From a virus: DNA of 38,745 nt. Every line of letters begins with the position of its first letter. Positions within the stretch are counted from its first letter, which is position 1. The notes beneath the pieces are model-generated. The model worked only from the letters and a program-made list of their open reading frames with translations. It searched no databases and had not been told where the DNA came from. The stretch lies in IMG/VR virus record IMGVR_UViG_3300044731_001587, positions 1 to 38,745 of that record; one strand, 5' to 3'. The position numbers and the translations under genes are program-made. Of this stretch, positions 4,259-33,009 are shown piece by piece.

Positions 4259-5893
4259 TTATGACTTATAGCCTAAGGAGCTAATTAACCCCTGTGGCAA
4301 ATACATGTTGCCCCAAAATGATGTTGGTGCGGACTTTACTAGCTCCTCGCCTTCTTCATCGTCTTCTGGGTCAACGCTCTTCTTCACAGCACCAGCTTGG
4401 GCAAAGCCTTCAACTTTTGCTGTTTGAACTTCTAGAGCCTTCTCAGTTGTTTCCAACTTCTCAGCCAACTCTACTTTCTGAGCTTCTACACTCTTAGTTA
4501 CTTCCTCGATCTTGGCATTAACATTCTCTTCAACTTCTTGCTTAAATGAAGTCGCAAAGTCGTTAAGCTTTTGATCAATGACTGAACCAAGGGCTTCTTT
4601 AAGAACTTCAATATCCATATCTTGTTCCTCCACTTGTTCGACATTCACTTCAGCTTCAATTGAAGCTTCAGTACTATGCTCGGACTTTTCCAGTCCTAAA
4701 TTATCAATCGGACCTAACCAATTAATAAACTTCTTGATAAAAGACAGTTTTGTATCTGTCTCTGACAAATTATCCATAGGTGTTACATTATCATATTTTT
4801 CAACATTATGCAATTCCTTATCGACATTACATCCACAATTACTAGATTTTTCAATTTCCATCATGTACTCCTCATACAAATCGTCCAGAAGCATGTTTAC
4901 AACATCATTATCAATCATATCGTCTTCCTGACTTTCAGAAATACTCTGAACGACTTCTTCATAATTTGAACCCGCAATAATCTCCAGTAAAGTATCTAAC
5001 ATGGAGTCATCGAAGTCATTTTCTGAAAAACTCTTCTTTTTAGTGTTGGCGTATCTTTCCAACATCCTTCTTCCCTTTGCAGCCAAAGCAGCGGCATCCT
5101 GCGCATTTTGCGGGACTGGTTCGCCCCATGCAGCGGCAGACAAAGCCAAGCGTGTTGGCTCACCATTTGGCTTTTTCATTGGGCCAGATGGGTTTGTGAA
5201 GAATCTAGTGAGGAAGGAGCCTTTACGGCGCATCTTCTCTGGAGTGTTGGCTGCACCCCTTACCCCGGGCTTCAAGTTTGCGCCCTCTGTTTGTTTAAAG
5301 TGTCTTCTGCCAGCAGCCGTCAATCCACCCTTCGGGTCTTTCAATGGTTGCTTTGCCTTTTCAATTTGGCAATCAAGGTCGCAGTCAAGTGCGTAATTCA
5401 ATCCGCCATCATTATTCATTTTTACAAGATCAATAGTTGCGAGGGCATTTGCTGGGTTATCAACAAGGCTCAGCTCGCCAAGGTCATATTGTTTAATAAT
5501 TGAAATAGGACGACCGTTGTGCATTTTACCAGCCATCACTTCTTTCTTGGTAATTCTGCCGCCAATAGAAAATGCACGAAGTGTGCCATCAAGGATCTTC
5601 TGCCAAGTATCCTCGGCACCTTTAGAAATATAAGCTTCAACCTGAATTGCATTATATTCCTGACCGTCAGCGCCCTTCATCTTCAATGGCTTGTAACTGA
5701 TGGCCTTGCCGACAGCAATGGGGGCATGCATTTCACGGATATTGCCCTGCCAGTTTTTAAATGCAATTTCAGACGCAGCAAAGTCAACAATGTCATTAGA
5801 TTTGTCAATATTATCTGCAGTTGCAATGCCAGAAACAATACGCTGTTCCTTCTTAATCATTTCAATTGGGAAAGAAATATTAAAGTCGTTCAT
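4259..5893 (-). CDS. Prohead protease fused to DUF6321-like domain and coiled-coil scaffold region
   Basis: A 544-residue multidomain protein. Residues 1-160 look like a phage prohead serine protease (XkdF/U35 type), with candidate catalytic His56 (REMHAP) and Ser109 (RAFSIGG) and the closing ELSLVDNPAN motif. Residues 182-290 are a basic GGLTAAGRRHFKQTEG... segment resembling DUF6321. After an acidic linker, residues 430-500 form a Lys/Glu/Val coiled coil that looks like a scaffolding domain. It lies directly before the capsid gene. It would chaperone shell assembly and then cleave itself and other head proteins. The start lacks an obvious Shine-Dalgarno. Confidence 0.85.
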   Translation of the reverse strand: MNDFNISFPIEMIKKEQRIVSGIATADNIDKSNDIVDFAASEIAFKNWQGNIREMHAPIAVGKAISYKPLKMKGADGQEYNAIQVEAYISKGAEDTWQKILDGTLRAFSIGGRITKKEVMAGKMHNGRPISIIKQYDLGELSLVDNPANALATIDLVKMNNDGGLNYALDCDLDCQIEKAKQPLKDPKGGLTAAGRRHFKQTEGANLKPGVRGAANTPEKMRRKGSFLTRFFTNPSGPMKKPNGEPTRLALSAAAWGEPVPQNAQDAAALAAKGRRMLERYANTKKKSFSENDFDDSMLDTLLEIIAGSNYEEVVQSISESQEDDMIDNDVVNMLLDDLYEEYMMEIEKSSNCGCNVDKELHNVEKYDNVTPMDNLSETDTKLSFIKKFINWLGPIDNLGLEKSEHSTEASIEAEVNVEQVEEQDMDIEVLKEALGSVIDQKLNDFATSFKQEVEENVNAKIEEVTKSVEAQKVELAEKLETTEKALEVQTAKVEGFAQAGAVKKSVDPEDDEEGEELVKSAPTSFWGNMYLPQGLISSLGYKS

Positions 5894-5939
5894 ATAGATA
5901 ATTAAAACCAGTATAATACACTATTTTAATGCAAGCAAA

Positions 5940-6197
5940 TTATGCAACAGCATAAACAGCAAGTGTTACGCCCGCTGTCATAACCTGAAATTTTGTATAA
6001 TCACCAGGGATTTCGACATAGTTTTTGTTTGCCGGAATTAGAACCTCGTGAGGTCCACCGTTCAGCCTTACCACTGCATCCGTGCTTTCATTTGTATTGT
6101 GAAAGTAAATACTCGCAGTATGATTGTTTAGAGACACAGTATTTGCTGTGCTATCTACTGCCGTATCTGAAAAAATAATACCCATTGTATGACTCAT
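5940..6197 (-). CDS. Small beta-rich head-region protein
   Basis: An 85-residue protein, nearly all beta-strand-like and rich in Val, Asn and Thr. The pattern AVVRLNGGPHEVLIPANKNYVEIPG suggests a small decoration or stabilising fold. Its start overlaps the portal stop (ATGA, 4 bp) and a Shine-Dalgarno GGAGG lies within the portal gene. No family recognised. Confidence 0.7.
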   Translation of the reverse strand: MSHTMGIIFSDTAVDSTANTVSLNNHTASIYFHNTNESTDAVVRLNGGPHEVLIPANKNYVEIPGDYTKFQVMTAGVTLAVYAVA

Positions 6198-16030: not shown

Positions 16031-16283
16031 TTTTTATGACCCAGAAAAAAATTACAATCCCTGGGCGGTTGAGAAAAGTTTTGAAGACTGGCTGCTGCTG
16101 GGTATCCAGAATAATTGGATTAGTAAGCCAGTGTGTTCTACCCACGATGGTATCCCGCAAAGTTTGGAAGAAGATAAAGAATGGGAAAATGGCGGAGACC
16201 CATGTATTTATGCACTTCGCCTATATGTAAATGAAGAAGAGAAGAGACTTGTAGAAGAAAACTCAGGTATTGTAAATGGCTAA
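16020..16283 (+). CDS. Small soluble protein, unknown
   Basis: An 87-residue protein. The ATG at 16020 is preceded by a strong GGAGGAAAG Shine-Dalgarno inside the previous gene (11-bp overlap). It is acidic, with CSTHDG and DPCIYALRLY motifs. It overlaps the metallopeptidase gene by 8 bp. The family looks like a small conserved phage protein I cannot name. Confidence 0.65.
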   Translation: MTDNFYDPEKNYNPWAVEKSFEDWLLLGIQNNWISKPVCSTHDGIPQSLEEDKEWENGGDPCIYALRLYVNEEEKRLVEENSGIVNG

Positions 16284-16767
16284 GCAACCTGCTGTGCCTC
16301 AGGAAATGGATGTTTGGGTTGTTCGCTATGTTAACAAACTAAAAAATATGATGGGGTTGTCTCATTGGACGATTCTTATGCAAGCGAAGCCTTGCAATGT
16401 GGATGCTCTTGGAGAAACAGAAGTAGTTCACGGTCAGCATTTAGCAAAAATGTATTTACATAAAGATTTTAGAAAAGATACCCCCGAGGATCTTCGGGCA
16501 ACCATTGTTCATGAGTTGTTGCATTGTCATCTTGCAGTAATTGAAGAAGCTGTTGATGAGGTATTAAAGCCGGACCCTGAAGATGCCAAGAGTAAGGCAA
16601 TTCATAAAATGGTGCTATCGCTTATCCAATATGAAAATGAGCGGGTCATTGACTCTCTTTCAGAATCAATGGGAAAATGGCTTCCAACTCCTGATATGCC
16701 AAAGCCAAGGGTTAAGAAGAAATCGGCAAAGAAAGTTGCTAAAAAACAAATAAAAAGAAAAATATAA
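16276..16767 (+). CDS. SprT-like zinc metallopeptidase
   Basis: A 163-residue protein with the zinc motif HELLH (residues 79-83) in ATIVHELLHCHL. A preceding amphipathic region (YLHKDFRKDTPEDLR) is typical of the minimal SprT/minigluzincin architecture. The C-terminal 25 residues are strongly basic (KKKSAKKVAKKQIKRKI), suggesting nucleic-acid binding, as in proteases that clear DNA-protein crosslinks. Activity inferred only from the motif. Confidence 0.75.
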   Translation: MAKQPAVPQEMDVWVVRYVNKLKNMMGLSHWTILMQAKPCNVDALGETEVVHGQHLAKMYLHKDFRKDTPEDLRATIVHELLHCHLAVIEEAVDEVLKPDPEDAKSKAIHKMVLSLIQYENERVIDSLSESMGKWLPTPDMPKPRVKKKSAKKVAKKQIKRKI

Positions 16768-16768
16768 A

Positions 16769-17368
16769 ATGAAAATTCCAAACAACATGATTCCTCATAT
16801 TGAAAAGATATTCAAGGGAGAATATGACATTGCATATGAAAATGAAAATCCAGTGATTTTAGATATTGGCGGTAATATTGGTGGGTTTTGTTTATGGGCT
16901 AATAAAAAATGGAAAAATTCAAAAATATATTCATATGAACCAATTAAAAATAATTTTGAGATTTTAAAATTAAATACAAAAGATTTTGATAACATTATGA
17001 TTATGAATCTTGCAATAGGTTCAAAGACCGAACAAAGAAAAATGTATTATGGAGCTCACAATGTTGGTGAGTGCAGTTTTCAACATGGCACTGAGCAAGT
17101 TGAAGAGGGCGAGGATGTTTCCGTTTTAGCGGCAAGTTTGCTACCAAAAGCAAACATTGTGAAAATTGATACCGAAGGGGCTGAGGTTGAAATACTAGAA
17201 AACATGGTTATCAAGCCAGATGTTTATTTGATTGAGTATCATTCAGCCTACGATAGAAGAAGAATTGATAATATATTGTATGACTACACACTTGTTGCGG
17301 CAGACATTGCTAATCCCAACTGTGGTATTGTTAAGTATGCACTCTCTAGTGCAATTAAATATGTTTAG
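16769..17368 (+). CDS. FkbM-family SAM-dependent methyltransferase
   Basis: A 199-residue protein. The SAM-binding motif I is PVILDIGGNIGGFCLW (residues 28-43), the acidic motif is IYSYEPIKNNFEIL, and the FkbM signature is NIVKIDTEGAEVEILENM. FkbM proteins O-methylate sugars or natural products. Near the glycosyltransferase and oxygenase it may tailor a glycan or modified base. It is more AT-rich than its neighbours. It begins 1 bp after the metallopeptidase. Confidence 0.8.
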   Translation: MKIPNNMIPHIEKIFKGEYDIAYENENPVILDIGGNIGGFCLWANKKWKNSKIYSYEPIKNNFEILKLNTKDFDNIMIMNLAIGSKTEQRKMYYGAHNVGECSFQHGTEQVEEGEDVSVLAASLLPKANIVKIDTEGAEVEILENMVIKPDVYLIEYHSAYDRRRIDNILYDYTLVAADIANPNCGIVKYALSSAIKYV

Positions 17369-17391: not shown

Positions 17392-18033
17392 ATGCCAGAA
17401 CTGAACGCAAGCATTCCACCTATCGAGTGTTATGTGCGTGGTAACTTTTTGCGCGATCAAGTTGATAGCCATCATCTTAAATTTCCGTGTGTAATTTTTG
17501 GGGTAGCATCAATACCAGATAGAGCGCCTGTGTTTCATTTTTTAATGGAAGATGGTGGGGTTTGGTGGAGAGCACCTATAAATGCTTTCTGTGACACTCT
17601 GGACGCTCCTGAGGTGGATATACACGACCTTGTGTTGTGGAATAGTTTTTCTTCTCATATCAGCGTAACAATCTTTGAGCACATGCGCGGTATGTCAATG
17701 ACATATATTAATCGCCGTAAAGAAAAAGTTGATGGCAAGTACATGTTTACTCTTGACTGGCATAACCCTGATGTGAATCTTCTTGATACGGGTTATTCTG
17801 TAAATCCGGGTCAACATAAGTGTGGTCATGTAATTTTACGCAAGGATGGTAATTTTGCCATCCAGCCAAATAACAGGGTTAGGCTATGGGATCCTTCTTA
17901 TACAACGAAGAAGGGTGATAGTTTGATTGAAAGATTGATTAATACAAAAATTTGGGATGTTGAAGATGGGGATAAGTGGTTGACATCGGATGATGACAGG
18001 TATGATTATGATATTGTTTCTAAAGGCGATTAG
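17392..18033 (+). CDS. Unknown conserved phage protein, 213 aa
   Basis: A soluble protein rich in Trp, Asp and His (PVFHFLMEDGGVWWRAPINAF; DWHNPDVNLLDTGYS; HKCGHVILR). The regular mix suggests a compact enzyme or binding fold, but no catalytic signature is recognised. AAAGGA lies upstream of the ATG. It ends 6 bp before a partial tRNA copy. Confidence 0.65.
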   Translation: MPELNASIPPIECYVRGNFLRDQVDSHHLKFPCVIFGVASIPDRAPVFHFLMEDGGVWWRAPINAFCDTLDAPEVDIHDLVLWNSFSSHISVTIFEHMRGMSMTYINRRKEKVDGKYMFTLDWHNPDVNLLDTGYSVNPGQHKCGHVILRKDGNFAIQPNNRVRLWDPSYTTKKGDSLIERLINTKIWDVEDGDKWLTSDDDRYDYDIVSKGD

Positions 18034-18038
18034 TCAGT

Positions 18039-18060
18039 GCTCGATTATCTCAGCGGTGGA
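18039..18060 (+). repeat. Degenerate copy of the 5' part of tRNA-Thr
   Basis: These 22 bases match the first 22 bases of the intact tRNA-Thr at 18680-18701 at 19 positions. The rest of the tRNA is missing. Together the two copies bracket the oxygenase gene like a direct repeat left by insertion or recombination at a tRNA gene. Confidence 0.6.
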
Positions 18061-18090
18061 AATGTAGTGAAAAATATACCGTCAAAGGAG

Positions 18091-18099
18091 TGTTATAAT
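18091..18099 (+). promoter_or_regulatory. Consensus extended -10 promoter
   Basis: TGt-TATAAT, a perfect consensus hexamer with the TGn extension, five bases before the ATG at 18105. An AAAGGAG at 18084-18090 is too far upstream of the ATG and would not be transcribed, so initiation is predicted leaderless. Confidence 0.65.
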
Positions 18100-18104
18100 A
18101 AAAT

Positions 18105-18656
18105 ATGACTATTTTAGAAAAGAAATCCATTTTACCAGAGAAGATGGAAAACTATATTTACAACACACTAACATCAAAAGAATTCCCGTGGTACTACCGT
18201 GATAATATTTCCTATACGGAGGTAACGCCAAGAAACATTAATGAGTACGGTTTTGTGCACATGATTGACTATTACGGGAATGCTACCGGGAATGGATACC
18301 TTGATAGTTTTAATGATTTAATTAAATCTACTATCCCAATTTTTGAAAAAGAATTCAATATTCAGTACAGTTCAATCGGAAGAATCCGGATAGGGCTACA
18401 GACAAAAGTTTCAGAATCTTCCGTTTTGTATAAACCGCACACCGATTCTCGCAGGCCGCATTCTTCTGTCATCTATTATGTCAATGATAGCGATGGTGAT
18501 ACTATATTCTACAAAGGACAAAGTTATCAAGAAAATGTGCGAATAAAGCCAGAAAAAGGCAAAGCTATATGTTTTAATGATTCATTGTTTCACGGCGGCA
18601 GTAGTCCTGTTGTGAATTCAAAAAGAATTGTTATTAATTTTTTGTTTAGGAAATAA
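18105..18656 (+). CDS. 2-oxoglutarate/Fe(II)-dependent oxygenase
   Basis: A 183-residue protein with the prolyl-hydroxylase-like double-stranded beta-helix motif. His112 and Asp114 (KPHTDS) and distal His163 (LFHGGS) would bind Fe(II), and Arg174 (NSKRIVINF) would bind 2-oxoglutarate. GDTIFYKG and KPEKGKAICFND are the typical strands between. Such enzymes are common phage accessory genes that hydroxylate protein, nucleic acid or small molecules. The gene has its own promoter and lies between a broken and an intact tRNA-Thr copy, which suggests recent insertion as a unit. Confidence 0.85.
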   Translation: MTILEKKSILPEKMENYIYNTLTSKEFPWYYRDNISYTEVTPRNINEYGFVHMIDYYGNATGNGYLDSFNDLIKSTIPIFEKEFNIQYSSIGRIRIGLQTKVSESSVLYKPHTDSRRPHSSVIYYVNDSDGDTIFYKGQSYQENVRIKPEKGKAICFNDSLFHGGSSPVVNSKRIVINFLFRK

Positions 18657-18679
18657 ATTATCAAATAAAATACAATAAC

Positions 18680-18751
18680 GCCCGATTAGCTCAGCGGTAG
18701 AGCTCTTCACTTGTAATGAAGGGGTCGGGGGTTCGACTCCCTCATCGGGCT
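18680..18751 (+). tRNA. tRNA-Thr (anticodon UGU)
   Basis: A 72-nt cloverleaf. The acceptor is GCCCGAT/ATCGGGC, the D arm GCTC/GAGC, the anticodon stem CTTCA/TGAAG with loop CTTGTAA (TGT), the variable loop GGGTC and the T arm GGGGG-TTCGACT-CCCTC. CCA is not encoded. It likely supports ACA codons in AT-rich phage genes. Confidence 0.95.
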
Positions 18752-18766
18752 CAAAGGAGGATGAAA

Positions 18767-18847
18767 ATGTCAAAACAAGATAAGATTACACATGCAGTGT
18801 ATTTCACACTTCATGCAATTACAATTGCTATACTGTTGATCAAGTAA
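18767..18847 (+). CDS. 26-aa single-helix membrane microprotein
   Basis: A short charged N-terminus (MSKQDKITH) and one hydrophobic helix ending LLIK. AAAGGAGG lies 6 bases before the ATG at 18767, an ideal Shine-Dalgarno; the ATG at 18761 is too close to it. The stop overlaps the next start by 1 bp, which favours real translation. Confidence 0.6.
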   Translation: MSKQDKITHAVYFTLHAITIAILLIK

Positions 18848-18981
18848 TGAAACTATTTAATTTTAAACACATTGTTCGTTTGTACAAGATGAACCGCATA
18901 TGGGGTGATAACTCTTTTATAGCAGCCTATTACGCTTTACGGGGTAAAGGGTTGGTTGCGGTGTTTAGAAGTAAAGAATAA
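18847..18981 (+). CDS. 44-aa basic small protein
   Basis: An ORF between the two tRNAs, starting in a TAATG overlap. It is basic and aromatic (KHIVRLYKMNRIWGDNSFIAAYYALRGKG) with a predicted amphipathic helix. The conserved look of DNSFIAAYYALRGKG suggests a real small phage family, but I cannot name it. Confidence 0.5.
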   Translation: MKLFNFKHIVRLYKMNRIWGDNSFIAAYYALRGKGLVAVFRSKE

Positions 18982-18986
18982 TACTT

Positions 18987-19059
18987 TGGCGAGTAGCTCA
19001 GTAGGCAGAGCAGCGGACTGTTAATCCGCTTGTCGTAGGTTCGATCCCTACCTCGCCAG
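18987..19059 (+). tRNA. tRNA-Asn (anticodon GUU)
   Basis: A 73-nt cloverleaf. The acceptor is TGGCGAG/CTCGCCA with discriminator G, the D arm GCTC/GAGC, the anticodon stem GCGGA/TCCGC with loop CTGTTAA (GTT), and the T arm GTAGG-TTCGATC-CCTAC. CCA is not encoded. Confidence 0.95.
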
Positions 19060-19062
19060 CTT

Positions 19063-19206
19063 ATGATGTGGATTTGGTGGTTTGCTCAGTTGTTTCTAAT
19101 TTTTATTACGGATGTGTCAATTCATCTACTTACGATAGCCTTGATCATTGCCGTTTATAAGAATCGGCGGTCACTTATAAAGTGGCGAAAAACGGGTAAA
19201 TACTAA
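19063..19206 (+). CDS. 47-aa small membrane protein
   Basis: It begins 3 bp after tRNA-Asn (MMWIWWFAQLFLIFI...). One long or two short hydrophobic helices are followed by a basic tail (YKNRRSLIKWRKTGKY). There is no Shine-Dalgarno, so translation is less certain. It ends the plus-strand operon, facing the ferredoxin gene. Confidence 0.45.
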   Translation: MMWIWWFAQLFLIFITDVSIHLLTIALIIAVYKNRRSLIKWRKTGKY

Positions 19207-19241: not shown

Positions 19242-19487
19242 TTATGGTTCAATGAATATGCATTCGCCCGGGCATTCTTCGGCGGCTTCGATCACATCTT
19301 CCAACCGATCATCGGCAAAAGATGCCAAGCCAGCTGCGCCTTCGGGGTTTCCCACAGATGAGGCAAATATTTTGTCCCCTTCGCGTACATATGCCAAACC
19401 GTCGGGCATCATCGTAAACACATCGGGTGCTATCTCGGCGCACAGTCCATCTCCAGTACATAGGTCTTGGTCAATCCAAACTCTCAT
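19242..19487 (-). CDS. 3Fe-4S-type ferredoxin
   Basis: An 81-residue protein. The N-terminal motif VWIDQDLCTGDGLCAEIAPDVF gives Cys10 and Cys16 with Asp13-Gly14 where a 4Fe-4S ferredoxin has its second Cys. The C-terminal ECPGECIF gives Cys72 and an extra Cys76. This is the actinobacterial small ferredoxin type that usually feeds cytochromes P450 or oxygenases. It could supply electrons to phage or host enzymes. It is more GC-rich than most of the window, suggesting acquisition from the host. Its start overlaps the previous stop by 1 bp. Confidence 0.88.
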   Translation of the reverse strand: MRVWIDQDLCTGDGLCAEIAPDVFTMMPDGLAYVREGDKIFASSVGNPEGAAGLASFADDRLEDVIEAAEECPGECIFIEP

Positions 19488-20426: not shown

Positions 20427-20568
20427 TTCTCCCCCAAACTTTTATACTCCTATACCCGCCCTGAACCTTCCTATCCAAAATTTTAGTACACATTTTATGA
20501 GTGTTACTTTGCATTTTTTGTTGTTGTTAATTTCCTCTGTCGGAGGGGGTCAATCCCTAGAAGGTTGA

Positions 20569-20715
20569 CGGTCGTACAACGGTGCGCTTAGCACAGAGTT
20601 GTACAACCGTTTGTTGGGTGAGGGGATGTATTTATATTGAATGCATATTTGCGACTTATTTGATACATTGTATTTGCCAACGAGATGCCCAGTCATCTCT
20701 GGCAAGGAGAGAACA
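20569..20715 (+). promoter_or_regulatory. Cassette 1 control block
   Basis: Palindrome arms CGGTCGTACAAC / GTTGTACAACCG enclose GGTGCGCTTAGCACAGA. The box TTGAAT is at 20637 and the -10 TACATT at 20664. A 5' hairpin (TTGCCA/TGGCAA plus GAGATG/CATCTC) spans 20674-20705, then GGAGAG. A box-like TTTAGTACACATTTT lies unusually far upstream at 20482. Confidence 0.8.
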
Positions 20716-20982
20716 ATGAATACACAAGGCATGAAGGCCGAGGGTTTAGCAGGGGCGCGAGTGTCTCACTGCTTCGGTTGGCTATCACAGGTTGCCGAAG
20801 TTGCACAGCAACACGATACCAGCATGTCCACTGCAATTGGCCTTGATCAGATTGGTGATGTTATCCGCCTTGAGTCGATCAAGGAGGACTTGACCACTGC
20901 GATCAACGAGGCAACGATCCTGTTGGTTGATCTCAAGGCTCGTGCAGAGGTCATCAGTCAGATGGCGAAGGACTTGATGTAA
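20716..20982 (+). CDS. Cassette 1 protein, helical, unknown
   Basis: An 88-residue protein, mostly helical with Leu/Ile/Ala heptad character (LVDLKARAEVISQMAKDLM at the end). One Cys and a Trp are near residue 20. The start is set by GGAGAG 4 bases upstream. It is followed by a weak TTCG hairpin and then a microprotein in the same unit. Confidence 0.75.
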   Translation: MNTQGMKAEGLAGARVSHCFGWLSQVAEVAQQHDTSMSTAIGLDQIGDVIRLESIKEDLTTAINEATILLVDLKARAEVISQMAKDLM

Positions 20983-21001
20983 GACCCTTCGGGGCTTTAT
21001 T
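20982..21001 (+). terminator. Weak TTCG hairpin after cassette 1 gene
   Basis: AGaCCC-TTCG-GGGCT followed by TTTATT. The stem is short, so read-through to the microprotein at 21029 is likely. Confidence 0.5.
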
Positions 21002-21028
21002 CCTACAACACATGAAAGGAGATGAATA

Positions 21029-21118
21029 ATGGATATCAACATTGACCCGCTTACGGCAATGATGATCATGGTGATCTGGGGCGCAGTCACCATGGTCAAG
21101 ACATACCTACGCAAGTAA
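21029..21118 (+). CDS. 29-aa membrane microprotein
   Basis: Residues 8-24 (LTAMMIMVIWGAVTMVK) form one transmembrane helix with a basic C-terminus (KTYLRK). AAGGAG lies 7 bases upstream. It sits between the weak and strong terminators of cassette 1. Confidence 0.65.
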   Translation: MDINIDPLTAMMIMVIWGAVTMVKTYLRK

Positions 21119-21124
21119 GCAGAG

Positions 21125-21155
21125 AGGGGAGGGGCTTCGGCTCCTCCCCTTTTTC
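21125..21155 (+). terminator. Strong intrinsic terminator, cassette 1
   Basis: Stem AGGGGAGG/CCTCCCCT extended to a TTCG loop, followed by TTTTCTTT. Confidence 0.9.
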
Positions 21156-21199
21156 TTTGCCCCGAACACCATGCACACAGCACACATAGGTCTCACATC

Positions 21200-21373
21200 T
21201 TTAATATCCATGAGCCGACACATGCTGTGTGCTTGGTGGGCGACGGTGCGCCTAGCACAAGTTGCACTCCAACAATAAGGCTTGCAGCATGATTCCATAT
21301 TGAATACACATTTGGCTCTCATTTGATAATGTTCATTGTGTCAAGGCGATCCCGCCCTGACAGAGAGGGAGAC
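21200..21373 (+). promoter_or_regulatory. Cassette 2 control block
   Basis: Upstream box TTTAAT at 21200, exactly 100 bp before TTGAAT at 21300. Palindrome GGTGGGCGAC-core-GTTGCACTCC at 21235-21270. -10 TAATGT at 21327. 5' hairpin TGTCA.GGC/GCC.TGACA at 21339-21362, starting where transcription is predicted, then GAGGGAG. Confidence 0.85.
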
Positions 21374-21625
21374 ATGAACGAATACACAATGGCTCTTTGC
21401 CTATTCGTGTTCGGCACCGCGTGTGTCGTGATCGGCTGGGCAATCGGGCGAGTAGAGGCGAAGCAAGAGTACAAGACACGCCTCGAAGATCAGCACTACC
21501 AAATCCTTGACCTGTACAAGCAAAGGGATTTGGTTGCCGAACTCTGCTTACAGAGCCAAGCGGAGATGATGAGGGCGGGCGCTGAACCCCTCACCTTTGA
21601 GGATATATTCGGCTCCAAGCAATAA
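21374..21625 (+). CDS. Cassette 2 protein, membrane-anchored coiled coil
   Basis: An 83-residue protein with an N-terminal transmembrane helix (LCLFVFGTACVVIGWAIG, residues 8-25) followed by a charged helix (VEAKQEYKTRLEDQHYQIL). A Shine-Dalgarno GAGGGAG is upstream. The topology suggests an inner-membrane protein with a cytoplasmic helical domain; function unknown. Confidence 0.75.
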   Translation: MNEYTMALCLFVFGTACVVIGWAIGRVEAKQEYKTRLEDQHYQILDLYKQRDLVAELCLQSQAEMMRAGAEPLTFEDIFGSKQ

Positions 21626-21640
21626 TCCCCAGCAAATAGA

Positions 21641-21675
21641 CCCCAAGCCTCACCCCCGAGGCTTGGGGTTTTTTT
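21641..21675 (+). terminator. Intrinsic terminator, cassette 2
   Basis: Stem CCCCAAGCCT/AGGCTTGGGG, then seven T. Confidence 0.95.
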
Positions 21676-21718
21676 GTTGCCCCAACACCAATCTTTCAGC
21701 ACATGATGTACCCGTATG

Positions 21719-21891
21719 TTTCATACACATTCACACCTCACATGCTGAACGGTGGTGGGCAACGGTGCGCTTAGCACAAGTTGCACTCCAATGATAAGGC
21801 TTACAACGTATTATCATATTGAATACACATTTCCTTCTCATTCTGTAAGGTAGTTGTTGTCAAGGCAACCCGCCAAGACAGAGAGGAACCA
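21719..21891 (+). promoter_or_regulatory. Cassette 3 control block
   Basis: Upstream box TTTCATACACATTCACACC at 21719, 100 bp before TTGAATACACATTTCC at 21819. Palindrome at 21754-21789. -10 TAAGGT at 21846. 5' hairpin TGTC..GGC/GCC..GACA at 21858-21880, then GAGAGGAA. Confidence 0.85.
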
Positions 21892-22230
21892 ATGCAACAT
21901 TGGGAAGTAAATGGTAGCGGTACGGTACAGAGCCTCTGTACCGATGGGAATTACTTTGAGATACATACTGTTCCTAGACAGCATGACTCAGAGCCTAGTT
22001 ATGTCGTCTTTCACCATGAGTATGACAACTTCATGGATAAGGTTGGCGATGTAATCGGTATCTTTCACAGCAAGGATGTAATGAACGCACGGGTGTGGTC
22101 ACGCCTGCGCTGTCAGGCACTCCGTGCTGATAAAGAGTTGGAATTGTTCACAGCCGTAAGGCAAGATGTTCTCAAGAGGCTTCATAGTCTTGAGAAAGAG
22201 CAAGACCGCTACAAGATATACAACGATTGA
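21892..22230 (+). CDS. Cassette 3 protein, unknown
   Basis: A 112-residue soluble protein. The first half is beta-rich (HWEVNGSGTVQSLC, SYVVFHHEYDNF). The C-terminal 45 residues are a long charged helix (ELELFTAVRQDVLKRLHSLE). No motif recognised. The start follows GAGAGGAACCA. Confidence 0.75.
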   Translation: MQHWEVNGSGTVQSLCTDGNYFEIHTVPRQHDSEPSYVVFHHEYDNFMDKVGDVIGIFHSKDVMNARVWSRLRCQALRADKELELFTAVRQDVLKRLHSLEKEQDRYKIYND

Positions 22231-22243
22231 CAAGCAATCCAGT

Positions 22244-22275
22244 CCCCCAAGCCTTCGGGCTTGGGGGATTTTTTT
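22244..22275 (+). terminator. Intrinsic terminator, cassette 3
   Basis: A 10-bp stem CCCCCAAGCC/GGCTTGGGGG with a TTCG loop, then a T run. Confidence 0.95.
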
Positions 22276-22317
22276 GTGCCCGAACTCCATTCATACTGTG
22301 CAGCCAAATGTTCCTTG

Positions 22318-22490
22318 TTTAATACATTCTTGCTACACAAGATGAATGGTGGGCAACGGTGCGCTTAGCACAAGTTGCACTCCAGCGGAAAGGCTTACAG
22401 GGTATCCCTACATTGAATACATATTCCTCTCTCATCCTGTAATGTTCATTCTGTCAGCGATACTCCTAACCCCGCTGGCAGGGAGAAACA
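22318..22490 (+). promoter_or_regulatory. Cassette 4 control block
   Basis: Upstream box TTTAATACATTC at 22318 (95 bp before the promoter box, shorter than in other units). Palindrome at 22348-22383. TTGAAT at 22413, -10 TAATGT at 22440. 5' hairpin CTGTCAGCG/CGCTGGCAG at 22451-22481, then GGGAG. Confidence 0.85.
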
Positions 22491-22676
22491 ATGAAACGAA
22501 CAGAACAACCCTTGCGCGTTAGTCACCCCGTGACGAAAATGACGCTTGAGGAACAATTCATGGTTCTCGCAACAGCGCTGAACCGTGCTACTCAGCAAGG
22601 CAACGCAAGCGCAATGAACGGACTGGCAGTCATGCTCAAGTCCTACGAGCGCAAGATTGCCGAGCAAGGCAAGTAA
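22491..22676 (+). CDS. Cassette 4 small helical protein
   Basis: A 61-residue protein with a short basic N-terminus and two helices (LEEQFMVLATALNRAT and SAMNGLAVMLKSYERKIAE). It could be a small dimeric regulator or antitoxin-like protein, but no family is recognised. Confidence 0.7.
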   Translation: MKRTEQPLRVSHPVTKMTLEEQFMVLATALNRATQQGNASAMNGLAVMLKSYERKIAEQGK

Positions 22677-22690
22677 CTTCCACTCCCAGT

Positions 22691-22725
22691 CCCCTCAAGC
22701 CGAAAGGCTTGGGGGGATTTTTTTT
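22691..22725 (+). terminator. Intrinsic terminator, cassette 4
   Basis: Stem CCCCtCAAGCC/GGCTTGgGGGG with a GAAA loop, then eight T. Confidence 0.95.
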
Positions 22726-22765
22726 GTCCCAACACCAGCGTTTCAGCACATACTATGCCCATATA

Positions 22766-22944
22766 TTTCATACACATTCACACCTCACATGCTGAACGGT
22801 GGTGGGCAACGGTGCGCTTAGCACAAGTTGCACTCCAGCAGGAAGGCGTATGGCATGTTCTCACATTGAATACACATTCTCACCTCATCGGGTAATGTAA
22901 GAGATGTCAAGGACAACCCATTCCCCCTTGACAAGGAGATAGCA
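22766..22944 (+). promoter_or_regulatory. Cassette 5 control block
   Basis: Upstream box TTTCATACACATTCACACC at 22766, 100 bp before TTGAAT at 22866. Palindrome at 22801-22836. -10 TAATGT at 22893. 5' hairpin TGTCAAGG/CCTTGACA at 22905-22933, then AAGGAG. Confidence 0.85.
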
Positions 22945-23199
22945 ATGACATACAGAACAGAACTTCCAGGGGCACTTACAGTCGCCTACGATTCAGTTGT
23001 TAAAGTTGCCAAGCAACTGAAAAACAACTTCATTAGCCAAAGCGAGATGGATGCCCAGATGCTCAGCATCTTGTTGGACATGAAGGTTGCCTTGCGTAAA
23101 GAGTTCATCGGTGACTTGCAGGACAAGTTGAGCGACATTGAGCAGTTGTTCACAGATGTTCAAGGCTCAATTGAGGAATTGGATTACTTCGTAGAGTGA
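22945..23199 (+). CDS. Cassette 5 helical protein, unknown
   Basis: An 84-residue acidic protein, nearly all helix with heptad spacing (LDMKVALRKEFIGDLQDKLS; DIEQLFTDVQGSIEELDYF). It is likely a coiled-coil dimer. No family recognised. Shine-Dalgarno AAGGAGA is upstream. Confidence 0.72.
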   Translation: MTYRTELPGALTVAYDSVVKVAKQLKNNFISQSEMDAQMLSILLDMKVALRKEFIGDLQDKLSDIEQLFTDVQGSIEELDYFVE

Positions 23200-23214
23200 T
23201 CGTTCCTTCCAACT

Positions 23215-23240
23215 CTCCCCTCGCCTTCGGGCGGGGGGAG
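23215..23240 (+). terminator. Hairpin after cassette 5, without T run
   Basis: CTCCCC-CGCC-TTCG-GGCG-GGGGAG, a very stable stem but followed by AACCCC, so it may only stabilise the 3' end. Confidence 0.6.
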
Positions 23241-23275
23241 AACCCCGACCGGACTGTGCTGAGCATTTCTCAATA

Positions 23276-23455
23276 TTTAATGCATATAAAAATTCTCTTC
23301 ACATTCTGCTGGTGGGCGACAGTGCGCCTAGCACAAGTTGCACTCCAGCGACAAGGCTTACAGCTCACAAACATATTGAATACATATTCTCATCTCATTC
23401 GGTAAGGTTCATTCTGTCAAAGCATTCCCGCTTGACACGACAGAATGGAGATACA
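23276..23455 (+). promoter_or_regulatory. Cassette 6 control block
   Basis: Upstream box TTTAATGCATAT at 23276, 100 bp before TTGAAT at 23376. Palindrome at 23311-23346, with core variant AGTGCGCC. -10 TAAGGT at 23403. 5' hairpin TGTCAAAGC/GCTTGACA at 23415-23437, with the alternative pairing ATTCTGTC/GACAGAAT around it, then TGGAG. Confidence 0.85.
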
Positions 23456-23698
23456 ATGTCAATAAGCGTAGATATGGTAACGGTGCTTACCGAGACCTGC
23501 CATCATTGCGGACAGATGGGGAAGGTTACAATGTCCGCCTCAGAATACTTCGCTGGTAAACAGCGGGTTGAGAATGGCGAACTAATCCAGTATGCCTTCC
23601 CAACATTGTCGGCAGACATTCGCGAGCAGATGATCTCAGGCACTCACCCTGAGTGTTGGGATGCAATGTTTGCTGATGATGAGAGTGATGAGAACTAA
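23456..23698 (+). CDS. Cassette 6 protein A, small Cys-pair protein of actinophage type
   Basis: An 80-residue protein with CHHC (Cys15, Cys18) near the N-terminus. The pattern IQYAFPTLSADIREQMISGTHPECWDAMF matches a small protein family I associate with phages of actinobacteria (AFP.LS...RE.LISG..P.CWD..F). The paired Cys and the late His64/Cys67 could bind zinc. Its stop overlaps the next start by 1 bp. Confidence 0.78.
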   Translation: MSISVDMVTVLTETCHHCGQMGKVTMSASEYFAGKQRVENGELIQYAFPTLSADIREQMISGTHPECWDAMFADDESDEN

Positions 23699-23937
23699 TG
23701 AGCCCGCAATTACTGGAAGAGATCCTGCACGCCGTAGCAGACCTACGGATACCCAAGACTGACGGGGTAATCATTGAGGCTCTCAAGATACCCCGTGAGA
23801 TATTCCAGCAAGACGGTGAAGAGTGCCGTAAATACAAGCGGAGTGTTGAGCACCAGATACGCACTCACCCCGCTATCAAGCCAGTATCTGTCCGCTGGAC
23901 AGTACACGGTGACTGCTACCTTGAGAAAGCAGTATGA
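23698..23937 (+). CDS. Cassette 6 protein B, unknown
   Basis: A 79-residue protein translationally coupled to protein A (TAATG). A helical N-terminus (LLEEILHAVADL) is followed by a basic strand-rich C-terminus (SVRWTVHGDCYLEKAV). It is the second two-gene unit in the array, after cassette 1. Confidence 0.72.
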   Translation: MSPQLLEEILHAVADLRIPKTDGVIIEALKIPREIFQQDGEECRKYKRSVEHQIRTHPAIKPVSVRWTVHGDCYLEKAV

Positions 23938-23942
23938 AACTT

Positions 23943-23976
23943 CCCCCTCGTGCCTTCGGGTGCGAGGGGGTTTTTT
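23943..23976 (+). terminator. Intrinsic terminator, cassette 6
   Basis: Stem CCCCCTCG-TGC around a CTTCGG loop, then TTTTTT. Confidence 0.95.
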
Positions 23977-24018
23977 CATGCCCAACACCAGCCTTTCAGC
24001 ACATGATGTACCTATATA

Positions 24019-24196
24019 TTTCGTACACATTCACATCTCACACGCTGAATGGCGGTGGGGCAACGGTGCGCCTAGCACAAGTTGCACTCCAGCAGAAAGG
24101 CGTACAGCTCACAAGCATATTGAATACATATTCTCATCTCATATTGTAAGGTTATATCTATCAGCGATTACCCTACCCCGCTGATAAGGAGAAGCC
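24019..24196 (+). promoter_or_regulatory. Cassette 7 control block
   Basis: Upstream box TTTCGTACACATTCACATC at 24019, 101 bp before TTGAAT at 24120; the left arm has one extra G. Palindrome at 24054-24090. -10 TAAGGT at 24147. 5' hairpin TATCAGCG/CGCTGATA at 24159-24186, then AAGGAG. Confidence 0.85.
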
Positions 24197-24505
24197 ATGA
24201 AAAAAGTAAAGCCTGGATCAGTAGAAACATTGGAGAGCATTATGAAAAGAAAACGGTTAGCAGACCCTTATCTGAAAAAATGCACTAAAGCGGTTACACA
24301 GACCACTGCCGTTGTCGTTACTGAACGCCCAGTGAAAAATACCCAAAACGAACGGCAGAAGCTTCGTGCCCGTATTACCGTTGCTAGTCAAGGTAAGCGG
24401 TTGTCAATAAACTTCGCCCCTACCCAGGATATCCTGCCCGATATAAAGAGTGGGCAAGTAGTTGCGGTGCTAACCATTGGGAAGCCCCGTAAGATATATC
24501 CATAA
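24197..24505 (+). CDS. Cassette 7 basic protein, unknown
   Basis: A 102-residue, strongly basic protein (MKKVKPGS...IMKRKRLADPYLKKC). The C-terminal 50 residues are beta-rich (RARITVASQGKRLSINFAP; QVVAVLTIGKPRKIYP). The charge suggests nucleic-acid binding. No family recognised. Confidence 0.72.
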   Translation: MKKVKPGSVETLESIMKRKRLADPYLKKCTKAVTQTTAVVVTERPVKNTQNERQKLRARITVASQGKRLSINFAPTQDILPDIKSGQVVAVLTIGKPRKIYP

Positions 24506-24523
24506 GATCGCTTCTCCAGCGAG

Positions 24524-24558
24524 CCCCTCAAGCCTTCGGGCTTGGGGGGTTTTTTTTT
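24524..24558 (+). terminator. Intrinsic terminator, cassette 7
   Basis: Stem CCCCtCAAGCC/GGCTTGgGGGG with a TTCG loop, then nine T. Confidence 0.95.
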
Positions 24559-24582
24559 GCCCTGAACTCCGATCACCATTTG

Positions 24583-24732
24583 GCGGTGGGGCGACGGTGC
24601 GCCTAGCACAAGTTGTACAACCGCTGATTGGATGTAAAGATATAAATATATTGAATACATATTCTCATGCCATTGGATATAGTAATTGTGTCGCCAACAA
24701 TACCGTTGGCGCAATAGTGAATGGAGATACCT
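24583..24732 (+). promoter_or_regulatory. Cassette 8 control block
   Basis: Palindrome GCGGTGGGGCGAC-core-GTTGTACAACCGC at 24583-24624. TTGAAT at 24651, -10 TATAGT at 24678. 5' hairpin CGCCAAC/GTTGGCG at 24692-24711, then TGGAG. No upstream box is seen: the preceding terminator ends only 25 bp before the palindrome. Confidence 0.85.
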
Positions 24733-25035
24733 ATGAAAGTAAACTTGGCAGACTTGACCAACTTGGTCAAGCGTGGCAGGCAGGGTGTAGTTGACCTACA
24801 ACTACAGGCTGAGATAGAAGCAATTGACCCGAACGAAGTCGGGGCAGGGTTCATTTACCCTGACGCTCAGGGCGACCCGAGTGACGATGACTTCCTCAAC
24901 CATAAGAACACTTGGCGTAATCGTGTTGCGAAAGCAAGCGATGCGGTACAGCGCGAAACAAGCGTGTTGTGGACTACCGAGGGTGAAATGGTCGTGACGC
25001 TCAAGGCTAAGAAAGTCAAGGGCAAGCGCAAGTAG
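24733..25035 (+). CDS. Cassette 8 protein, paralogue of cassette 9
   Basis: A 100-residue protein similar over its full length to the cassette 9 product, with shared LTNLVKRGRQGV, EIEAIDP, HKNTWRNRVAKAS and a basic C-terminus. A helical N-terminus and a C-terminal beta hairpin (SVLWTTEGEMVVTLK) suggest a small DNA-binding protein, but no family is recognised. The ATG at 24733 is set by GGAG 8 bases upstream. Confidence 0.8.
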   Translation: MKVNLADLTNLVKRGRQGVVDLQLQAEIEAIDPNEVGAGFIYPDAQGDPSDDDFLNHKNTWRNRVAKASDAVQRETSVLWTTEGEMVVTLKAKKVKGKRK

Positions 25036-25064
25036 TTGTATCTCCCACAACTACAAGGATACAA

Positions 25065-25094
25065 GGGCTACGGCATACGCCGTAGCCCTTTATT
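25065..25094 (+). terminator. Intrinsic terminator, cassette 8
   Basis: Stem GGGCTACGGC/GCCGTAGCCC with an ATAC loop, then TTTATT. Confidence 0.9.
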
Positions 25095-25095
25095 C

Positions 25096-25136
25096 GCTGT
25101 TGTTCACTTTGTGCTAGGCGCACCGTGAACAACAGC
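25096..25136 (-). repeat. Inverted-orientation palindrome A
   Basis: A 12-bp perfect stem GCTGTTGTTCAC/GTGAACAACAGC encloses the reverse complement of the array core (GGTGCGCCTAGCACAA). It lies 2 bp after the cassette 8 terminator and is not followed by a promoter box in its own direction. Confidence 0.85.
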
Positions 25137-25162
25137 CGGAGTGAGAGCTCATGTCGTATATT

Positions 25163-25342
25163 TTTAATACAAATTTCTAATCTCTCAAGATACGCGGTGG
25201 TGCAACGGTGCGCCTAGCACAAGTTGCACAACCGCCATAAGGGTCGCAAGGCCTATTCGAATTGAGTACGGTCTCATATTGTGTTTGATATAGTGATTGA
25301 TGTCGCCAACATCCCGTTGGCGCATAAACAAAAGGGGATACA
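25163..25342 (+). promoter_or_regulatory. Cassette 9 control block
   Basis: Upstream box TTTAATACAAATTTCTAATC at 25163, 99 bp before TTGAGT at 25262. Palindrome GCGGTGGTGCAAC-core-GTTGCACAACCGC at 25194-25235 (one mismatch). -10 TATAGT at 25289. 5' hairpin CGCCAAC/GTTGGCG at 25304-25322, then AGGGG. Confidence 0.85.
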
Positions 25343-25707: not shown

Positions 25708-25748
25708 GGTGTTGTTCACTTTGTGCTAGGCGCACCGTGAACAACACC
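25708..25748 (-). repeat. Inverted-orientation palindrome B
   Basis: A 12-bp perfect stem GGTGTTGTTCAC/GTGAACAACACC around the reversed core. Compared with copy A, the second base pair is G-C instead of C-G, a compensatory change. Confidence 0.85.
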
Positions 25749-32695: not shown

Positions 32696-32772
32696 AACAT
32701 AACTTCCTTTCTGTTGGTTACTGAACTCCAGTTATTTTGATGTTGTTAAGATCATGAACTTGAGTATATTAA

Positions 32773-32932
32773 AAAACGGTATAAAAAGAACTAGGCAGAA
32801 AATATTAAGTCGGATACTAATGAACAGACACGACACTTTGACAAACTATAAAAGAATCATATTTTTATAATTTGCATATTTCCCTTAGGCAGAAAGGTTT
32901 AAGCTTTAGCCTAGTTCTTTTTATACCGTTTT
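32773..32932. repeat. 24-bp perfect inverted repeat around 112 bp
   Basis: The arms (32773-32796 and 32909-32932) are exact reverse complements, reading AAAACGGTATAAAAAGAACT... A second shared 10-mer (TAGGCAGAAA) occurs inside at 32792 and 32885. The right arm ends 4 bp from the 3' end of tRNA-Arg. No ORF inside. Confidence 0.85.
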
Positions 32933-32936
32933 CTAG

Positions 32937-33009
32937 TGCTTCCGATAGGAGTCGAACCTATACTCTACTGATTAGAAGTCAGTTGCTTTATCCATTAAGC
33001 TACGGAAAC
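32937..33009 (-). tRNA. tRNA-Arg (anticodon UCU)
   Basis: A 73-nt cloverleaf. The acceptor is GTTTCCG/CGGAAGC (one G-U), the D arm GCTT/AAGC, the anticodon stem ACTGA/TCAGT with loop CTTCTAA (TCT), and the T arm ATAGG-TTCGACT-CCTAT; discriminator A. It would read AGA, a codon favoured in AT-rich genes. Confidence 0.93.

Follow-up and report, generated by a model that had tools for sequence, protein, structure and literature searches.

The window analysed here is a 38,745-nt stretch of viral DNA that makes up positions 1–38,745 of IMG/VR record IMGVR_UViG_3300044731_001587. It raises the question of how a predicted oxygenase gene came to lie between a broken and an intact copy of the 5' end of a tRNA-Thr gene (Table 1), and whether the arrangement records the way in which the gene entered the phage genome.

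Table 1. Features of the plastic region of the window and its borders
Feature	Position	Strand	Remarks
c7, SprT-like (weak)	16276–16767	+	Backbone gene, conserved; marks the left edge of the plastic region
FkbM-type methyltransferase	16769–17368	+	Variable cargo; PF05050, 3.2e-9
Gene A (phrog_3704)	17392–18033	+	Cargo; before tRNA-Thr, after tRNA-Thr or after tRNA-Asn, depending on the relative
Truncated tRNA-Thr 5' end (scar)	18039–18060	+	nt 1–22, 3 mismatches; 1 mismatch in L099
TATAAT -10 box	18094–18099	+	Perfect match, 5 nt before the oxygenase ATG
2OG-Fe(II) oxygenase (predicted)	18105–18656	+	PF13640; HxD...H...R
Intact tRNA-Thr(TGT)	18680–18752	+	Rfam 68.4 bits; identical in L104/L018
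26-aa ORF	18767–18848	+	Nearest relatives also have it directly 3' of tRNA-Thr (conserved); the 99.3% tract ends here on the right
Intact tRNA-Asn(GTT)	18987–19060	+	Next anchor of the plastic region
Ferredoxin	19242–19487	minus

The scar and the gene beside it

The scar (GCTCGATTATCTCAGCGGTGGA) differs from nt 1–22 of the intact tRNA-Thr (GCCCGATTAGCTCAGCGGTAGA) at three positions, as the initial annotation had reported, and the match is beyond chance: the pattern of tRNA-Thr nt 1–21 with up to three mismatches occurs twice in the window and in none of 100 dinucleotide shuffles. The scar alone is not called as a tRNA by ARAGORN or Rfam. In the sister locus (L099) the scar (GCCCGATTAGCTCAGCGGTGGA) is identical to tRNA-Thr over nt 1–19, and its sole difference is at position 20. 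Because these first 19 nt are exact in the sister, the scar is judged to be a decaying piece of a real tRNA-Thr. It also holds two of the ten differences between the window tract and its sister within 22 nt (hypergeometric p 0.009), an enrichment that fits an unconstrained remnant.

The gene located between the scar and the intact tRNA-Thr encodes a 183-aa protein that is a predicted member of the 2OG-Fe(II) oxygenase superfamily. The match to PF13640 scores 32.2 bits (E 2.2e-7), above the curated cut-off of 27, and the iron triad HxD...H and the C-terminal Arg (H112, D114, H163 and R174) are invariant in four homologues. The family is labelled 'DNA endonuclease V' in PHROGs (PHROG 274) and in many cyanophage records despite its match to the 2OG-Fe(II) oxygenase profile, and this label is likely a propagated misannotation. 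The initial annotation had also given the gene its own consensus promoter. Its -10 box is indeed a perfect TATAAT, but no -35 candidate upstream was accepted by the promoter scan, and a lone box so close to the ATG is more in keeping with a start of the leaderless type than with a complete sigma-70 consensus. In relatives, the HNH genes and the majority of the SNase genes have the same arrangement. The idea that every cargo gene has a leaderless promoter was considered and rejected, as the FkbM gene has none and gene A has one in 1 of 22 cases.

The ferredoxin encoded in the window shares 75–78% identity with ferredoxins from actinobacterial metagenome bins, those of Acidimicrobiia included; many of the bins come from lakes, so the host is likely a freshwater actinobacterium. 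A megablast search against isolate phages gave no match. Two further repeat structures were observed outside the locus. Between short ORFs, the region 20566–25275 contains at least eight intergenic copies (67–84%) of a unit with CGGTGCGC[CT]TAGCACAAGTTG and ATTGAATACATATTC, several of them located just after a strong hairpin that has a T-run, and two inverted copies lie at 25096–25126 and 25708–25738; the unit looks like a terminator-promoter cassette. A 27-nt inverted repeat (96%) is present at 32770–32796 and 32909–32935, with its right arm abutting the 3' end of a tRNA-Arg (32936–33009, minus strand) and no tRNA fragment at its far arm.

Layouts with and without the oxygenase

The left junction of the window recurs in only one other IMG/VR contig, that of the sister (3300020548_000090; L099/L017/L002). 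From gene A through the 26-aa ORF (~1.46 kb) the two loci differ at 10 of about 1,453 compared nt (99.3% identity), and this tract contains gene A, the scar, the oxygenase, tRNA-Thr and the 26-aa ORF. The adjoining FkbM gene is 69% identical, though its neighbour gene A is 99.5% identical, and the backbone upstream is mostly 86–95% identical. A tract of 99.3% within surroundings of 69–95% indicates that the block was exchanged recently between the window and its sister. The oxygenase had been described as a recently acquired portable unit; the recent exchange is borne out, but what was exchanged is the whole block rather than the oxygenase gene by itself. Beyond the tract, the cargo flanking tRNA-Asn on both sides differs between the window and L099/L018: the window has short ORFs at 18849–18980 and 19063–19206, where L099/L018 have an 8-nt spacer and a second oxygenase.

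Relatives with a tRNA directly after gene A and no oxygenase had been predicted, and two such layouts were found. In L104/L018, whose backbone is 98.5% identical to that of the sister, gene A is followed by 56 nt and then tRNA-Thr, with no oxygenase at this place. In L123, which has the same FkbM and gene A neighbours as the window, the order is FkbM, gene A, 13 nt and tRNA-Thr, and an intact tRNA-Thr stands where the window has the scar. The spacer between gene A and the tRNA differs in L104, and a perfectly clean empty site was not found among the relatives examined. The repeat is also kept by the relative that carries the oxygenase: the sister has it in a better preserved form than the window.

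With c7 as bait, 71 loci were fetched. To the right of the bait gene the tRNA order Leu-Thr-Asn(-Ile) is fixed in about 70 related contigs, while the gaps between the tRNAs are filled differently, by FkbM, gene A, several 2OG oxygenases, SNase and HNH genes. The slot 5' of tRNA-Thr is empty in L131 and L108, contains oxygenases 45–49% identical to that of the window in L132 and L133, and contains other genes in L107, L111 and L113. In L131 tRNA-Thr comes after FkbM; at the corresponding position in L133, ahead of the oxygenase, lies a decayed stretch that matches the 5' end of tRNA-Thr. This match has a p of 0.00025 in an anchored shuffle made post hoc and is not significant by unanchored alignment (p 0.11). 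The related oxygenase in the same slot of L132 has no detectable scar. Shared segments end at tRNA edges, with tRNA-Asn shared over 88 nt only. In this phage group several cargo genes, the oxygenase among them, are gained and lost in the gaps between conserved tRNA genes.

Split tRNA genes and HNH genes in relatives

When the relatives were scanned for pieces of tRNA lying outside tRNA genes, 25 forward matches reached a score of at least 18, several of the loci being copies of one contig, and none did so in any of three controls (opposite strand, reversed sequence and complemented sequence). Truncated tRNAs mark several insertions in this phage group, with breaks at nt 21, 33–34 and 46. In L161, nt 1–33 of a tRNA-Thr are followed by 524 nt containing an HNH gene and a different intact tRNA-Thr, and then by nt 35–73 of the first. 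This tRNA-Thr is uninterrupted in L156; the two halves are exact, and only the anticodon base G34 is absent from the split copy. The same insert (HNH 99%) is found in another tRNA-Thr in L028/L157. In L159/L024, nt 1–34 of a tRNA-Leu precede a second HNH gene, 41% identical to the first, and a different intact tRNA-Leu; the tRNA-Leu that is split here stands intact in L153/L022. L166/L020 carry nt 1–21 of tRNA-Leu fused to the apparent last codons of an HNH gene of this kind, which reads as a decayed stage, and a further HNH-like ORF, which has no Pfam match, interrupts their tRNA-Asn at nt 46 together with two ORFs. Intact and interrupted forms can thus be paired, in relatives only, for tRNA-Thr (L156 and L161), tRNA-Leu (L153 and L159) and tRNA-Asn (L168 and L166).

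The Pfam matches of the HNH genes lie below the curated cut-offs (E about 1e-4), and an endonuclease gene is present at this locus in the relatives L161, L024, L028 and L020 only. Group I introns (Rfam RF00028) were not detected in the inserts of L020, L161 and L024, nor in the window between 17900 and 19200. A T-arm match in L021 was rejected as a tRNA-Asn fragment, since it is a tRNA-Thr 3' half once pooled tRNAs are used. The same architecture recurs in an unrelated phage (L340, reverse complement of 2115–2834; also L341), whose tRNA-Pro is in two parts (nt 44/47) that enclose an HNH-like ORF as well as an intact tRNA-Pro.

Among loci with relatives of the first HNH gene, 75 of 80 contain tRNA genes. 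An intact same-strand tRNA starts within 30 nt of the HNH stop codon in 33 of 80 cases; for the remaining ORFs of these loci the figure is 48 of 548 (Fisher p 3e-12, loci not deduplicated). The oxygenase family does not share this linkage: only 20 of its 78 loci have any tRNA in the flanks fetched, which reach up to 4 kb on each side. A wider fragment scan over HNH-like loci was noisy because ARAGORN misses some intact tRNAs, and the cases kept are those in which both halves were read by eye. When tRNA 5' halves were sought automatically in front of HNH genes, most of the finds were intact neighbours, so the generality of same-isotype replacement is not established.

Other arrangements were observed in tRNA-rich phages. 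In L370, L378, L382, L386 and L388 an HNH gene lies between two intact tRNAs for the same amino acid (Thr/Thr, Ser/Ser, Glu/Glu). The unrelated L176 (and L177) has two Rfam group I introns (insert ranges 200–388, 5448–5642 and 5914–6194), and its third insert of ~215 nt splits a tRNA-Ile/Met-like gene in the anticodon region.

A more far-reaching reading, put tentatively and at somewhat less than even odds, is a class of minimal mobile cassette in phages, made of an HNH gene and an intact replacement tRNA. Such a cassette would cut and disrupt a tRNA gene whose isotype matches that of its replacement, in tRNA-Thr and tRNA-Leu at the anticodon; the divergent replacement would keep the codon readable and the carrier immune to its own nuclease, and the tracts opened in this way may become landing pads where ordinary cargo, such as the oxygenase of the window, is exchanged between tRNA anchors.

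Probable entry of the oxygenase at tRNA-Thr

The favoured history, with a probability of roughly 0.7, is that recombination brought the oxygenase in at a resident tRNA-Thr, left the 5' end of that gene behind and rebuilt an intact tRNA-Thr downstream. The ancestor would have had gene A followed by tRNA-Thr, the order still present in relatives. A block with the oxygenase, ending in a complete tRNA-Thr, would then have recombined into the tRNA-Thr locus. Its right join would have formed through tRNA homology, rebuilding the intact gene, and its left join inside the D-arm region of the old tRNA would have stranded the first ~20 nt. The TATAAT box of the oxygenase would allow expression wherever the gene lands. 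The initial annotation had seen here the footprint of either insertion at a tRNA gene or recombination between tRNA copies. Its reading of the scar as the 5' end of a tRNA-Thr is supported. The two mechanisms are not fully separable, and the setting is broader, a whole plastic region anchored by tRNAs in which relatives show HNH genes inserted into tRNA genes.

A possible trigger is a nuclease-made break in the tRNA gene that was repaired from a donor. This is plausible because relatives show HNH genes inside split tRNAs, and for the window we would hold it at about one chance in three. Against the favoured history and this trigger, the scar of the window ends at nt ~20, whereas the tRNAs in the HNH cases (Thr, Leu) break at the anticodon, and the intact tRNA of the window belongs to the scar's own sequence type instead of being a divergent replacement. 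The lack of a perfectly clean empty site and the oxygenase of L132 with no detectable scar count on the same side. Profiles for HNH (HNH_3), tyrosine integrases (PF00589) and serine recombinases/resolvases (PF00239) found nothing in the contigs of the window, L099, L018 and L123, all of which may be incomplete, and tblastn of the HNH queries against the window gave no significant match. Recombination between tRNA copies alone, a serious contender at a little under even odds, competes with this trigger and not with the reading of the scar. A donor with two tRNA-Thr genes around the oxygenase would have crossed over in tRNA-Thr without any endonuclease, and the left copy would have decayed to ~20 nt. 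The scar and the intact tRNA being of one sequence type suits this account, as does the behaviour of tRNA genes as the most conserved short islands where all else is replaced, with shared segments that stop at their edges. It requires, however, a specific deletion of nt 23–73 that spared 19 exact nt, and the events that can be resolved in relatives have a nuclease gene at the break.

The other accounts concern what arrived and why. It is unlikely that gene A was the newcomer, brought from a phage with gene A before tRNA-Thr together with the first ~20 nt of that tRNA and landing before an existing oxygenase-tRNA-Thr pair. Gene A is mobile in the clade and L133 has FkbM, oxygenase and tRNA-Thr with no gene A between, but L123 shares the junction of FkbM and gene A (TATAAAGGAATA motif) and has gene A directly before tRNA-Thr, so the order FkbM, gene A, tRNA-Thr looks ancestral. 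The identity between the window and L099 also begins at gene A, so that a joint arrival of gene A and the oxygenase in one of the two is possible. Site-specific integration of a small satellite-like element at a ~20-bp att site in the tRNA-Thr 5' end is very improbable. A direct repeat with one intact tRNA does have the classical look of attL (the scar) and attR (the tRNA start), but the insert is only ~640 bp with one oxygenase gene, the scars of relatives fall at several tRNA positions, and the recombinase gene that a tyrosine- or serine-recombinase element requires is missing from the four nearest contigs, the possibly incomplete window included. That the oxygenase modifies tRNA, with the fragment kept as a functional guide or decoy, is hardly credible: 2OG oxygenases adjoin tRNA-Thr and tRNA-Asn in many clade members, but the family as a whole has far fewer tRNA neighbours than the HNH family and the fragment is decaying.

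For the favoured entry by recombination at tRNA-Thr, the closest described case, by analogy, is SegB of T-even phages, a free-standing GIY-YIG homing endonuclease in a tRNA cluster that moves tRNA genes (PMC2988022; PMC6409571 citing Brok-Volchanskaya 2008). In T6 the tRNA-segB unit is amplified, and microhomology at the tRNA 5' end is implicated (PMC13096335). The systems share a tRNA locus as recombination hotspot, an endonuclease gene beside tRNAs and the co-transfer of neighbouring tRNA genes. They differ in that the nuclease of the relatives is HNH, interrupts a tRNA gene from within instead of lying between tRNAs, and comes with an intact replacement of the same isotype; the cargo of the window is an oxygenase, no endonuclease is present at its locus, and a target in both intact and interrupted form is known from relatives only. 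HNH genes also lie among mycobacteriophage tRNA genes and are implicated in the diversity of the tRNA repertoire (Pope 2014, cluster M, as cited in PMC6409571), and homing-type nuclease genes mark boundaries of phage segment exchange (PMC10448857), but the latter, in the passages searched, mentions neither a tRNA gene that is split as the target nor a replacement tRNA. An HNH gene that splits a tRNA gene and brings a same-isotype replacement was not found described in the searchable literature, for mycobacteriophage tRNA clusters or elsewhere, subscription papers lying outside that search. Integrative elements that target tRNA genes through a tyrosine integrase likewise leave an insert between a truncated and an intact tRNA; here no integrase was found, the insert is tiny, the break position varies and the site is inside a phage genome.

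In the window the route by which auxiliary genes, 2OG oxygenases among them, enter phage genomes is recorded physically: entry at a tRNA gene, with a truncated tRNA left behind. The filled and empty pairs in its relatives make directly testable the hypothesis that tRNA genes are the targets of HNH enzymes, which bring along a same-isotype replacement tRNA. If true, this would be one answer to why the tRNA genes that phages carry vary in sequence and why they lie in the most variable regions of the genome, and it would stand alongside codon usage and escape from tRNA-cleaving defences.
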